Below, piece after piece: positions 45,692 to 53,160 of a DNA stretch of 64,000 bases (its first letter is position 1; each line of letters begins with the position of its first letter). A model generated the notes under the pieces. The model was given only the letters and a program-made list of their open reading frames with translations. It searched no databases and was not told where the DNA came from. Position numbers and translations under genes: made by a program. Source of the stretch: Flammeovirga sp. SJP92 (GTDB taxonomy: Bacteria > Bacteroidota > Bacteroidia > Cytophagales > Flammeovirgaceae); the NCBI RefSeq assembly GCF_001583495.1, contig NZ_LQAQ01000018.1:186001-250000 (forward strand). Reading direction: 5' to 3'.

Positions 45692-45836
45692 ATCGTTATC
45701 AGATAGTATCTTGTTGCTATTGAATAGAGGAGGAGGTACTTCTACAAATGTTTTTCGAGTGTTGTGGATCATTTGTATTGGTGCTGAGTGTTTTATAAAA
45801 ATCAAATTTGAAACCAAGTTAGTCAATATACATCCT

Positions 45837-47342
45837 GTGATATTAGAAGAAAATATACGCCTTATTTTCGGTTTGAAGGTCCGAATGCATAGGCAAGAAC
45901 AGAAATTATCATTATCGGAATTAGCAAAAAAGGCTGAAATGTCCGTTTCCTACATCAACGAAATTGAGAAAGGAAAGAAGTACCCTAAAAGAAATAAAAT
46001 AACATCACTGGCGGCTGCTTTAAAAGTATCTTATGATGAGTTGGTTTCTTTGAAGATCTCCAAAAAACTAGGGGCTATTTCAAAGTTATTGAACTCTAAT
46101 ATTCTTCAGGAACTTCCTCTAGATGTTTTTGGTCTTGAACCAAGAAACCTCTTAGAGCTGATGTCAGATGCTCCATCCAAACTTTCTGCCTTCATCAATA
46201 CTATTGTTGAGATTTCAAGAAATTACAACCTTACAGTAGAAAACTTTTACTTTTCGGTGTTACGTTCTTATCAAGAAATCCATGATAACTATTTTGAAGA
46301 AGTAGAAATTGCGGCAAAGGAATTCAGAAGAAAGATCATAGATGACGACAAGCCGTTGGAGATCCAACTACGTCAGTACTTGACAACGTTCTGCAATTAT
46401 AGAATTGATGAAGAAAGCCTTTCGGAACATGAAGCTTTAGACACATTGAGAACGGTCATTAAAGTTGAAGATGACGGCACAAATGTCTTGATGATCAATA
46501 AAAAGCTGAATGCCAGAAGACGTACGTTTATATATGCTCGTGAAGCAGCCTTTCAGGTGTTGAACCTTCAGGAAAGATCAATGACTTATTCATGGATGCA
46601 AGTCAAATCTTTCGACATGCTTTTCAATGATTACATGGCCACTTATTTTGCTGGAGCCTTTTTAGTACCTGAAGAAGCATTGGTAGAAGATCTGCAAGAG
46701 ATTGTGCACAGCAATAGTTTCTCTAACGAGAAAATGTTAGACCTCATTGCAAAGCATAATACTTCTCCTGAGACTTTCCTTCACCGTCTGACAAGTATTC
46801 TTCCAAAGCATTTTGGCTTAAGCAAAATTTTCTTCCTGCGTCTGGATCATATTCCTGGTTCCAACCGCTACTCATTGACCAAAGAACTTCACCTTGATGG
46901 ATTACATAGCCCTCACGGTACGGTACTGAGTGAACATTACTGTAGAAGATGGGTTTCTTTAAAGATTTTTGAAGACCTAGAACAAGCGAGATCAGAAGGC
47001 AAGGAAGATGAATATATTTGTGATGCTCAAACTTCAAGGTATATCACTTCCGGTAAAGAATACTTCTGTATCAGCGTTGCAAGAGCATTGCCATTGGTAG
47101 ATGAAACTATTGATACAAGTATTACAATTGGATTCTTGATCAATGATAATTTCAGAGAAAAATCCAAATTGTGGCAGTCCGAAAAAGTAAGGATGGAGTT
47201 CGTAAATGAAACCTGCGAACGTTGTCCATCAGTAGACTGTCAGGTAAGGGCTTCTGATTCTATTGTATTGAAAAAAGAACAGCAAGAAAAAGAAAGAATT
47301 GCTGCTTTAGAAGCAATTTTAGGAAAACCTGTTGTATCTTAG
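45837..47342 (+). CDS. XRE-family regulator of the COG3800 (ScfR/RamB-like) type
   Basis: 501 residues from a GTG at 45837 (read as MILEENIRLIFGLKVR), the start that fits family N-termini; an ATG at 45711 would add 42 residues with an odd hydrophobic stretch. HTH: LSLSELAKKAEMSVSYINEI then EKGKKYPKRNKI. The middle is the large ImmA/IrrE-like region, but the metal site HExxH is not present: the expected place reads IYAREAAFQVL. The C-terminus has the Cys cluster CERCPSVDCQVRA characteristic of the DUF2083 end. Members regulate short-chain acyl metabolism in actinobacteria and proteobacteria; the target here is unknown. Monocistronic. Confidence 0.85.
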   Translation: MILEENIRLIFGLKVRMHRQEQKLSLSELAKKAEMSVSYINEIEKGKKYPKRNKITSLAAALKVSYDELVSLKISKKLGAISKLLNSNILQELPLDVFGLEPRNLLELMSDAPSKLSAFINTIVEISRNYNLTVENFYFSVLRSYQEIHDNYFEEVEIAAKEFRRKIIDDDKPLEIQLRQYLTTFCNYRIDEESLSEHEALDTLRTVIKVEDDGTNVLMINKKLNARRRTFIYAREAAFQVLNLQERSMTYSWMQVKSFDMLFNDYMATYFAGAFLVPEEALVEDLQEIVHSNSFSNEKMLDLIAKHNTSPETFLHRLTSILPKHFGLSKIFFLRLDHIPGSNRYSLTKELHLDGLHSPHGTVLSEHYCRRWVSLKIFEDLEQARSEGKEDEYICDAQTSRYITSGKEYFCISVARALPLVDETIDTSITIGFLINDNFREKSKLWQSEKVRMEFVNETCERCPSVDCQVRASDSIVLKKEQQEKERIAALEAILGKPVVS

Positions 47343-50227: not shown

Positions 50228-51079
50228 ATGAATTATAAAAACCTAATTATAGTAGTAGTATTGGCAATATGGGGTTGTGAAGAACCCATTAGGCTGGATC
50301 TTCCGAGTGGTGAGCCAAGCACTATTATTGATGCCAATATCTCAGAAAGTAATGTGGTTTCAAGGGTTGTCCTGTCCAAGTCTTTAGGTTTTAATGATAC
50401 CATTGATTTCCCTCCTATTGAAAATGCCAGTGTGGTATTGCAGCATACAAAAAGTGAAACCTCCTTTTCATTCAATTACGTCAATACACTAAGTGTTGGT
50501 GCTGTCTATGAAGCACAGAATGAAGTACAGCTTATCACTAACGACTTTTATTTTTTCTCCGTTTACTTACCTGGCAGTATTGAGGACCCCGATACACTGT
50601 ATCAAGCAACGATGAAAATGCCTACCAAAGTCCCTGTGGATGGAATTGGCTTTAGAAAATTGGATAATGAAGTAGATCAGCATGTTTTAAGGATATTTTT
50701 CACGGATCCAGAAGGAGAAAGAAATTTTTACAGCTGGAGGGTTTCTCAGAAAATTAATGGGGAGTTTGTCATCTTATCAACCACTAAAGTACCACTTTAT
50801 ACCGACCAGGGAATTGATGGAAAATCGGTATTTGTAGAATTCAGTGGAAAGAATTTTTCACTCAATGATACGCTTCAAGTGCATTTCAAGTCACTGACCA
50901 GAGATGCTTATGATTATTATAGATCGCTGAATAATTTGATTGATGTTTCGGGAACCAACACCTCTGCGGATAATCCTAGAAGTAATTTTGTGAGCAGTGC
51001 CGGCGATAGATCCTTCGGTTATTATTCTTTGGAAGGAGTTGACGACACTGAAATTTTTGCAGTAATTGATTCTCTATAA
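50228..51079 (+). CDS. DUF4249-family lipoprotein
   Basis: 283 residues. Lipoprotein signal MNYKNLIIVVVLAIWGC (Cys17), then DUF4249 landmarks: STIIDANISESNVVSRVVLS, a middle NASVVLQHTKSETSFSFNY and VGAVYEAQNEVQLITNDFYF, and the end DRSFGYYSLEGVDDTEIFAV. DUF4249 proteins go with TonB receptors in Bacteroidota and are probably surface lids or binding partners. It follows the receptor by 6 bp. Its last 6 bp overlap the 3' end of the convergent gene at 51074, with no terminator between. Confidence 0.9.
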   Translation: MNYKNLIIVVVLAIWGCEEPIRLDLPSGEPSTIIDANISESNVVSRVVLSKSLGFNDTIDFPPIENASVVLQHTKSETSFSFNYVNTLSVGAVYEAQNEVQLITNDFYFFSVYLPGSIEDPDTLYQATMKMPTKVPVDGIGFRKLDNEVDQHVLRIFFTDPEGERNFYSWRVSQKINGEFVILSTTKVPLYTDQGIDGKSVFVEFSGKNFSLNDTLQVHFKSLTRDAYDYYRSLNNLIDVSGTNTSADNPRSNFVSSAGDRSFGYYSLEGVDDTEIFAVIDSL

Positions 51080-51616
51080 AGACAACCGTTTAAAATATTT
51101 TTTCAAAAAAGGCTGAGCAAACTTATACACCTTAAAGCCTCCTCGGATCAGATATGGACTGATATACTCTTTGATTTTTTTTCTGAATTGAACTGAAACA
51201 TAAGCCATCACAGCGGTGACAATGATTTGCACCATATTTTCATATTTCAAAGCATAAAGCATTGAGATAGTGTTGGCTAATGTCATTAGAAAATAAGACA
51301 ACGCATCCCAAAATTCCTGATTGGTTTGCATCTTGAAAAAAGCAAACTCCACCTCATACCAATGCCTTCTTAAAGTCCTTTTTATTTGGCTGGAATTCAG
51401 TTGAATTTCTGAATCTGTCATCTTAGGAATATAATTAAAGACATCAGCATCCAATTGAATCACAGTCATGAAACTGTACTCCCCTCCTGTTTTTAAAAGC
51501 AGAGGGGTATTGATCTCTACCCCTCCGTTTTGGAAAGTTTCAACCAGCATCTCCGCCGCATCTTTTGAAGCTTTGAGTTGCTTAAGTTTTTCATTAAATA
51601 CCTTCCAATTCACCAT
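51074..51616 (-). CDS. GDV-motif operon protein C, membrane
   Basis: 180 residues. Not a family I recognise. It carries MTVIQLDADVFNYIPKM (residues 50-66), which matches TVVQIDGDVTSYLTPKF in the upstream gene product. After the motif come a charged helical part (HWYEVEFAFFKMQTNQEF) and two close membrane helices (about 104-122 and 128-146: LSYFLMTLANTISMLYAL, MVQIIVTAVMAYVSVQF), then a basic amphipathic tail (LKKYFKRLSL). Last gene of a three-gene leftward operon, 2 bp after gene B. Probably the membrane partner of a complex formed by the three proteins; inference. Confidence 0.75.
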   Translation of the reverse strand: MVNWKVFNEKLKQLKASKDAAEMLVETFQNGGVEINTPLLLKTGGEYSFMTVIQLDADVFNYIPKMTDSEIQLNSSQIKRTLRRHWYEVEFAFFKMQTNQEFWDALSYFLMTLANTISMLYALKYENMVQIIVTAVMAYVSVQFRKKIKEYISPYLIRGGFKVYKFAQPFLKKYFKRLSL

Positions 51617-51618
51617 AT

Positions 51619-52482
51619 CTATGATTCAGTTGTTTTGTTATTTCCAAAAATGGATGAAAATGCTTTTCCTGTTAAATCTGTGAGAACTTTGAAGAACGAA
51701 GACCAGTGACCTGTTGCTTCATTGGTAGAATTTTGATGAAAATTCATCACCATTGTTCTCAACTCTGGAGGAAGCTTTACAAACTTTGGTGTCAGGTAGG
51801 AAGTTACGTCTCCATCAATCTGCACTACAGTTTGAAGCAAAACCTGCTGTGTACCCAATTCCCAAGCTTTACGGATCTGCGTAATTTGTTCGGTTCCAAA
51901 ATCCAATTCTTCCACTTCGTTCATTTCACGAAGCAAAATATCATTGTTCCATTTATGAGAGCCAATCTGTGAAGGATACCTATCATATTGCCCCACACCA
52001 CCATCATTGAATTCAGCATCATAACCTCTTTGCCCTTGCTTTGTTTCAATGGCTAACTTCGTACGTTGCATTTTGAACATTCCAATAAAGTTGGCACTTT
52101 GCCTTTCAATTCTGTAAAGCATCTGAATCCTTTCTTTCAAACTTTCAGATTGCTCTTCCGTTTGCATTCTAGGCAACAGTGACTCGTAGTATCTCTTTCC
52201 TTCCTGAGCAGCTCTTTTCACTTCATAAAAAGAATATTCACCCGCTCCTTCAAAACGCAACAGAAACTTCTCTTTTCCTGAAGCATCCACACAAGCAGGA
52301 ACACCTTTGGCTTTTTCACAAATACCAAACTCAATCAGTGTTTTTCTATACCTTTCTATGATATCTCTTAATGCCAAACGCTTGTTGACGGGCATTTTAG
52401 CACCTGTTGTATTCTCCTTTAAAATGGTATTAACTTCCAGCGTTAATAACTCATTGGCGATAGACTTTAGGGATTTCTCCAT
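51619..52482 (-). CDS. GDV-motif operon protein B
   Basis: 287 residues, soluble, no signal peptide. N-terminus IANELLTLEVNTILKENTTG (8-27) resembles the N-terminal NNLVTLDIKTIV of protein A. The middle (about 80-150) is helical (LKERIQMLYRIERQSANFIG). The motif TVVQIDGDVTSYLTPKF lies at 218-234, preceded by IRKAWELGTQQVLLQ and followed by MVMNFHQNSTNEATGHW; protein A has the same FHxxxxxxGH arrangement after its motif. No known domain. It begins 6 bp after protein A and ends 2 bp before protein C. Function unknown. Confidence 0.75.
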   Translation of the reverse strand: MEKSLKSIANELLTLEVNTILKENTTGAKMPVNKRLALRDIIERYRKTLIEFGICEKAKGVPACVDASGKEKFLLRFEGAGEYSFYEVKRAAQEGKRYYESLLPRMQTEEQSESLKERIQMLYRIERQSANFIGMFKMQRTKLAIETKQGQRGYDAEFNDGGVGQYDRYPSQIGSHKWNNDILLREMNEVEELDFGTEQITQIRKAWELGTQQVLLQTVVQIDGDVTSYLTPKFVKLPPELRTMVMNFHQNSTNEATGHWSSFFKVLTDLTGKAFSSIFGNNKTTES

Positions 52483-52488
52483 TGTATT

Positions 52489-53160
52489 CTATTCTTCCTC
52501 TTTTTTAGTATCCTCCTCATTATTGTCTTCTGAAGCTGATTGGTCGTCAGAAGAAGTGGCTGCAGGGGCATCATAATCAATTGGAGGAGTATCCAATGCT
52601 GGTGCGTCAGCTGTAGGTGCAGCCGCTGTAGAAGCTGGGTCAAACGCTGCTGCTTCATAATCAGGGGCTGCTGCCGCAGTCTGAGACGGGTCAAACGCTG
52701 TTTCTTCAGGATTGTATGACAACACCGGCTGTGCAGGTGCAGAAGGGAAAGCCTGTTGTGGAGTAGCCGCTGCACTGCTGTAAAATGAATCCGCAGGAGG
52801 AACGTCTATTCCTTTGGTCTTGGCATAAAGCTCAAACAAACTATAAACGGCCTTGATGTTGTCATTAATAATAGCATGTCCATGTTGTTCTTTTTGGGCA
52901 TGAAAATCACGAACCCATGCATATCTATCTTGAACCAGATCATTACTTACATAAGAGGTCACATCACCTTTCAGTAAATGAATTTTACTATTCATTACTT
53001 TATAGTCCGTTCCTTCTTTTTTGACGATCTCGTCTTTTTCTCCATTGACATGGAAATCACCTACAATGGTTTTTATATCTAGAGTAACTAAGTTGTTGAT
53101 ATAATCTTCAATATTGTTGACAAAGTTCTGAAAGAACCCAACATTTTCCTGATCTGACAT
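52489..53160 (-). CDS. GDV-motif operon protein A with disordered acidic Ala/Pro tail
   Basis: 223 residues, no signal peptide. Folded part 1-120: NNLVTLDIKTIVGDF (22-36), the motif HLLKGDVTSYVSNDLV (61-76), then DFHAQKEQHGHAIINDNIKA (85-104), which parallels protein B. Residues about 121-205 are Ala/Pro-rich with repeated FDPSQTAAAAP / FDPASTAAAP units, and the last 18 residues are strongly acidic (SEDNNEEDTKKEEE), so this part is likely disordered. First gene of the operon. An out-of-frame ORF on the same strand within the tail is an artefact of its low complexity. No known family. Confidence 0.75.
   Translation of the reverse strand: MSDQENVGFFQNFVNNIEDYINNLVTLDIKTIVGDFHVNGEKDEIVKKEGTDYKVMNSKIHLLKGDVTSYVSNDLVQDRYAWVRDFHAQKEQHGHAIINDNIKAVYSLFELYAKTKGIDVPPADSFYSSAAATPQQAFPSAPAQPVLSYNPEETAFDPSQTAAAAPDYEAAAFDPASTAAAPTADAPALDTPPIDYDAPAATSSDDQSASEDNNEEDTKKEEE

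Follow-up and report, generated by a model that had tools for sequence, protein, structure and literature searches.

What do three small, closely packed genes of unrecognised function encode, and do they belong to one machine? We asked this of a gene trio, here named A, B and C, in a 64,000-nucleotide stretch of the genome of Flammeovirga sp. SJP92 (positions 186,001 to 250,000 of contig NZ_LQAQ01000018.1; hereafter the window). The three open reading frames (ORFs) are intact and form the tight leftward operon that a first-pass annotation of the letters had described, all on the minus strand, with gaps of 6 bp between A and B and 2 bp between B and C. We found that the three proteins are divergent relatives with one shared strand-and-helix unit, that they are found together as one unit, and that they are invisible to the curated libraries searched. 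They are most likely obligate partners in a putative membrane-tethered complex; a role of this complex in controlling an effector that cleaves the wall or proteins is a guess with weak support.

The earlier proposal that each protein carries a version of the same domain was examined by pairwise profile comparison, using 40 B, 37 A and 33 C sequences that were taken from the window and from loci found through B and aligned family by family. Full alignments compared with hhalign gave E-values, each for a single comparison, of 3.2e-7 (B-A), 3.3e-7 (B-C) and 0.0021 (A-C), and the corresponding scores of 52, 51 and 25 exceeded the maxima from 200 column-shuffles per pair (24, 17.5 and 13.6), with column-reversed profiles scoring 15-17. 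The Gly-Asp and His positions are in register for all three pairs. In a fused A-B-C MAFFT alignment, intended for co-folding and set aside for this reason, the three domains fell onto one another. Common to the three proteins are a strand ending in Gly-Asp and a following helix with a conserved His. A and B additionally share the preceding strand with its Thr, which their profiles align and which lies in the N-terminal block noticed at the outset; they share the whole unit, comprising a helix, the strand with Thr, the strand with Gly-Asp and the helix with His. The Thr of C is less certain: MAFFT places Thr37 under the A/B strand, whereas it lies outside the B-C profile alignments and an early A-C profile alignment placed it elsewhere. 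This weakens the equivalence of that residue, yet leaves the B-C and A-C profile matches unaffected.

The relationship between A and B becomes closer when part of B is set aside. Removing the columns of B residues 29-202, a cut chosen on the hypothesis of a split domain, raised its match to A from E 3.2e-7 to 4.3e-13 (score 73 over 102 columns, maximum of 40 shuffles 16), with the Thr, the Gly-Asp, the His, the two strands and the final helix aligned over nearly the full length. B resembles the domain of A carrying, between the two strands, about 170 residues that are mostly helical, the helical character being a crude picture from averaged propensities. Against C, the trimmed B gained in E-value only (1.2e-8, score 47). 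The motifs originally quoted are all present in A, B and C; an FHxxxxxxGH pattern claimed for both A and B has the six-residue spacing in A and eight residues in B, and its first His is conserved (His87 and His249) while the second does not stand out. The coordinates of these features are collected in Table 1.

Table 1. Genes, segments and conserved residues of the trio, in window coordinates.
Feature	Coordinates	Strand	Description or basis
Gene A	52489..53160	minus	ORF, 223 aa; N-terminal domain of ~120 aa, then a disordered-looking tail
Gene B	51619..52482	minus	ORF, 287 aa; A-type domain interrupted by a mostly helical insertion
Gene C	51074..51616	minus	ORF, 180 aa; shared strand-helix part, then a probable membrane hairpin and basic tail
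A Thr31, strand 1 of shared domain	53068..53070	minus	37/37 rows
A Gly65-Asp66, end of strand 2	52963..52968	minus	Gly65 37/37, Asp66 36/37 rows
A His87, helix after strand 2	52900..52902	minus	37/37 rows
B Thr19 (motif LEVNTI)	52426..52428	minus	38/40 rows; aligns with A Thr31 by profile
B Gly224-Asp225 (QTVVQIDGD)	51808..51813	minus	each 39/40 rows, gap in the remaining row
B His249	51736..51738	minus	39/40 rows, gap in the remaining row
C Thr37, preceding strand	51506..51508	minus	30/33 rows; equivalence to A Thr31 suggestive only
C Asp56-x-Asp58, end of strand 2	51443..51451	minus	each 30/33 rows
C His85	51362..51364	minus	32/33 rows
Ala/Pro-rich acidic tail of A (residues 123-223)	52492..52794	minus	composition; lineage-specific
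B insertion between strands 1 and 2 (~residues 29-202)	51877..52398	minus	hhalign without these columns
Probable membrane hairpin of C (~residues 105-144)	51185..51304	minus	hydropathy and family survey

The three genes are also inherited together. Single-sequence searches found A and B in the identical 21 of 58 related genomes, which are non-independent samples, and the C profile found the same 21. C by single sequence was found in 16 (two borderline, of which G041 was not confirmed), and the A profile reached 22, the extra genome, G016, having only the A' form described below. All nine genomes of the window's genus carry the trio. Gene order was surveyed at 45 loci, all found through B: by profile, 39 loci have A no more than 250 bp upstream of B and 34 have C no more than 250 bp downstream of it, and four further C-like frames were seen by eye (L088, L091, L093, L097). 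A also adjoins B at L096, where the B ORF was called too long, and a single gene separates the two at L065, a Cytophagales genome; by eye, that gene (L065:5641-5988) encodes a small secreted protein of heavy-metal-binding, HMA-like type. At L061, L070, L075 and L076 no A is near B and A lies elsewhere in the genome. Thirteen genomes reached through the loci have exactly one A match each, with L075 and L076 the only independent evidence among them, A being mostly already known in the rest. C is on a different contig at L061, and L094 and L098 are at contig ends. At L081, a Desulfobacterales bin, C could not be judged; B is followed there by repeat-like DNA with the same peptide strings in all frames.

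Could three small unrelated genes simply share a short motif by coincidence? The motif is indeed short, the A-C similarity is weak, and in the initial comparisons, made with fewer sequences, B-C alone scored strongly (E 2.3e-6); the matches of B-A (E 0.0054, confined to the N-terminal block) and of A-C (E 0.0088) were weak. However, the shuffle controls, the identical set of 21 genomes and a gene order preserved across phyla have largely refuted this explanation, and we regard it as highly improbable.

We compared the proteins with known families. A, B and C have nothing above the curated cutoffs of Pfam or NCBIfam and zero PADLOC matches; those of the window and of L083 have zero PHROGs matches at E 0.01; and a profile search of PDB sequences returned no convincing relative, only scattered weak matches. 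When the 37 A members were compared with Pfam, no more than three members matched any one of the first 25 of 27 families. A clear match to an unrelated known family, which would have contradicted the first-pass annotation, was thus not found in these libraries. The candidates that did appear were set aside: the best PDB match aligned the C profile with a designed TIM barrel (E 0.0012, 23 residues, no stretch passing alone), and the RuBisCO small chain, presenilin, aminotransferase and other Pfam or NCBIfam matches of A, B or C were far under the curated cutoffs.

The conserved polar residues raise the possibility that the domain is catalytic or metal-binding, with a site of Thr, Asp and His within or between the subunits of a membrane-associated enzyme. 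These residues are near-invariant in all three families, and B adds others (E16 in 40, K29 in 36, R124 in 39, R204 in 36 and K205 in 40 of its 40 rows). Gly-Asp turns and a His may, however, be conserved for structure alone, C's conserved pattern, judged by eye, is eroded in some Alphaproteobacteria (L088, L097), and neither an enzyme family above cutoff nor a convincing PDB relative was found; we therefore consider an enzyme improbable.

A membrane location is suggested by C. In the window, C has two adjacent 19-residue segments with mean hydropathies of 1.39 and 1.23, both slightly below our threshold of 1.4. Across the family, 29 of the 33 C rows reach this threshold in one segment or more and 14 do so in two, one of which precedes the Gly-Asp strand in four of the 14; such a segment is found in only 3/40 B rows and 3/37 A rows. 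The membrane hairpin first proposed for C is therefore moderately supported. A's Ala/Pro-rich acidic tail, also part of the initial description, is present in the window (about 100 aa) and is not a general component: it is missing or different in many relatives in the family alignments, and some relatives are only 109-116 aa in total.

Combining these results, our preferred reading, to which we give a probability of roughly 0.5, is that the one-domain trio forms a putative membrane hetero-oligomer, with effector control as a guess. A, B and C would be subunits of one obligate complex on the cytoplasmic side of the inner membrane. C would be the membrane anchor, because hydrophobic segments are common in C only; B would be the core or ligand-binding subunit, as it carries more invariant polar residues than the other two (E16, K205, D225, H249 and others); and A would be a small soluble subunit. 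The complex might then act as a switch or scaffold restraining an envelope- or protein-cleaving effector.

The notion of a cell-wall theme comes from a second, longer operon type, found in some Bacteroidota, and from genes beside the trio. The longer operon has the order A'-D-A-B-C, where A' has the same domain as A (A-A' E 7.7e-9) and D is about 540-605 aa long. It is complete in G009 (L044). G103 (L100) and G181 (L099) have A'-D-A-B and a gene at the C position that is C-like by eye and was missed by the C profile, G011 (L104) has A'-D-A, G231 (L135) has A'-D, and G016 (L138) has A'-D at a contig end; in G366 (L136), A' lies beside a gene taken as D by its position only. PG_binding_1 was matched in two divergent D or D-like proteins, at L136 (E 5.7e-4, 20.5 bits) and L135 (E 0.012, 16.2 bits), and the A'-D module may, on this weak indication, bind peptidoglycan. 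A CHAP and PGBD enzyme lies right behind the C-position gene of L100, in Bacteroidota, and a PGBD/CHAP enzyme directly behind the trio of L093, in Sphingomonas, these being the two genomes with adjacent enzymes of this kind. L097 has a GH19-like enzyme with PGBD 3.4 kb away, L089 an M23 protein with SH3, and L085 an SH3 domain (Pfam) with an M23-like region (by similarity). In a more ambitious picture, the trio would be an undescribed cross-phylum machine, built from one domain duplicated into anchor, core and soluble subunit, extended in the A'-D-A-B-C form by peptidoglycan-binding parts, and controlling cell-wall cleavage or a membrane effector. We offer this extended picture only tentatively and think it rather doubtful.

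The trio could alternatively be an export or holin-like machine for cell-wall hydrolases without a signal: C has its hairpin, and the L093 and L100 hydrolases have no obvious signal sequence at their starts by eye and match endolysins and a tail lysozyme family in PHROGs. Such a machine is distinctly unlikely, since none of the three proteins matches a PHROG, viral contigs yielded no relatives of B, D or A', and an adjacent hydrolase is present at few loci only.

Other neighbours of the trio are papain-like proteins at L080 and L083, CHAT proteins at L090, L070 and L096 (the last by similarity), and a trypsin-like NAL1 protein at L178. The papain-like domains are N-terminal in related 659-aa proteins of two anammox genomes (L080:3572-5551 and L083:10535-12514), which lie on opposite sides of the trio and whose C-terminal halves are hydrolase-like by eye. 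In a Brocadia bin, a caspase-DUF7379 gene and, by eye, a TIR-like gene follow the trio on the same strand (L181:1-4656, the same locus as L082). Altogether, a queried effector type is present in 12 of 49 test loci (0.52 Mb) and in 1 of 40 control regions (0.80 Mb), which come from genomes mostly carrying the trio, some from the same contigs; because the queried effector types had been chosen from the test loci themselves, this comparison is biased and provides a lead rather than a test.

These genes could also mean that the trio is an effector-recruiting conflict or cell-death module, as in multicellular bacteria, with exchangeable peptidase effectors. The caspase, TIR-like, papain-like, CHAT and NAL1 genes, the higher count of queried types than in the controls and the trio's patchy distribution all fit such a module, whereas the biased queries, the 37 of 49 loci that hold no queried effector type, the zero PADLOC matches, the lack of a recognised NTPase in the trio and its presence in every genome of the window's genus do not; we judge it unlikely.

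Returning to the membrane-tethered complex and its guessed effector, several observations weigh against them. Both PG_binding_1 matches in D are below the Pfam cutoff of 23 bits, the better one is in the gene assigned as D by position only, and the D proteins of L044, L099 and L104 (E up to 1) and of L100 (E up to 0.001) have none. A C-terminal copy of the shared domain in D is unsupported against B, where 13 of 40 shuffles score as high, and against A, where 1 of 40 does; it is marginal against C and A', where none of 40 does (E 0.002-0.003). PGBD ORFs found by a regular expression number three in the 0.52 Mb of test loci and zero in the 0.80 Mb of the 40 control regions, but this excess is weak and post hoc, because the pattern was written after L100 and L093 had been seen. 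Sixty-one near-neighbour proteins (L058-L098) matched 83 families, the commonest of the 25 listed being found in four, and such scatter means that the trio has no constant partner outside itself. No effector directly adjoins the window's operon in the ORF list. Finally, C is not found beside B at L069, L074 and L079, the rest of those genomes not having been searched for C. Effector control is accordingly graded as a guess, given the biased comparison and the lack of a constant partner.

The trio, usually ordered A-B-C, extends across genomes and bins of six phyla. Among its carriers are genomes of Flammeovirga, Flexithrix, Azospirillum and Sphingomonas, together with bins labelled as anammox bacteria, Desulfobacterales, Thiomargarita and Anaerolineae. 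B is present in 3/395 sampled genomes of the window's phylum (the window's own included), in 5/75 of the class of a Loosdrechtia genome and in 20/82 of the order of Azospirillum halopraeferens, the centre genome being counted in both. A tree of 43 B rows, from which L096 (over-called) and L098 (short) were dropped, is largely grouped by phylum, with seven changes for six groups (minimum five); it has several long branches, and many records are bins with possibly wrong names. Such a distribution is compatible with ancient inheritance followed by many losses, and perhaps with some transfer, and proves neither. In two records named Thalassobius and Thalassovita (L058 and L060), B groups with Flexithrix; they correspond to contigs of G015 and G017, placed in the window's own family, and the names are probably wrong. 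A viral origin of the trio received no support: a profile search of viral contigs returned no relatives of B, D or A', and a search of phage records with one B (L083) returned none. Among plasmids, queries from the window, Azospirillum, Sphingomonas and L100 found seven Azospirillum records only, and in the four plasmid regions inspected the trio's position is occupied by genes annotated as hypothetical.

Within the 8.49 Mb host genome, the setting of the operon has its own features. C overlaps by 6 bp a convergent, lipoprotein-like ORF ending at 51079. Upstream of that gene and of a TonB-receptor-like gene lies an ORF (45711-47342) that by eye combines a helix-turn-helix regulator with an ImmA/IrrE-type region. 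The closest B proteins from named genomes are those of Flammeovirga, at 95% identity.

How does the trio compare with described systems? The first-pass annotation knew of none like it, and we found no description of it in the literature covered, which largely excludes subscription journals; a term search of PMC8195603 returned no hit. We take the trio as new since it could not be assigned to a known family or system, and a known fold for its domain may yet emerge. It comprises three related, co-inherited proteins across distant bacteria, unseen by the curated libraries searched, and its small, defined parts occur in cultured species, making it amenable to knockouts and structures that address whether a duplicated domain forms an envelope complex.

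The nucleoside triphosphate (NTP)-dependent conflict systems of multicellular bacteria, for which peptidase and peptidoglycan-attacking effectors are described (Kaur et al. 2020, PMC7159879), resemble the trio in patchy distribution and, at some loci, in nearby caspase, CHAT, papain-like, trypsin-like and cell-wall hydrolase genes. In contrast to those systems, A, B and C have no recognised NTPase, EAD or Death-like domain in Pfam or NCBIfam, and neither these libraries (above cutoff) nor PADLOC identified a core NTPase, effector or adaptor domain in the operon. The terms Flammeovirga, Brocadia and three-gene are absent from the paper's main text.

Phage lysis cassettes, with their endolysin and holin, share with the trio a small protein with a probable membrane hairpin and, at L093 and L100, an adjoining PGBD/CHAP enzyme. 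Unlike them, the trio consists of three related subunits, and A, B, C, A' and D have no PHROG match; holin or endolysin families are matched by the neighbouring L093 and L100 hydrolases only, and phage or viral relatives were found neither for B, D and A' among viral contigs nor for the L083 B among phage records.

The gas vesicle shell protein GvpA is a small helix-strand-strand-helix protein, of which several paralogues are encoded. Its family is absent from the Pfam hits of A, B and C, which have no Pfam match above cutoff, and from the first 25 of the 27 families hit by the 37 A members. As an analogy only, the trio resembles GvpA in consisting of small, putatively helix-strand-strand-helix proteins present as paralogues, and it differs in the large insertion of B and the probable membrane hairpin of C.

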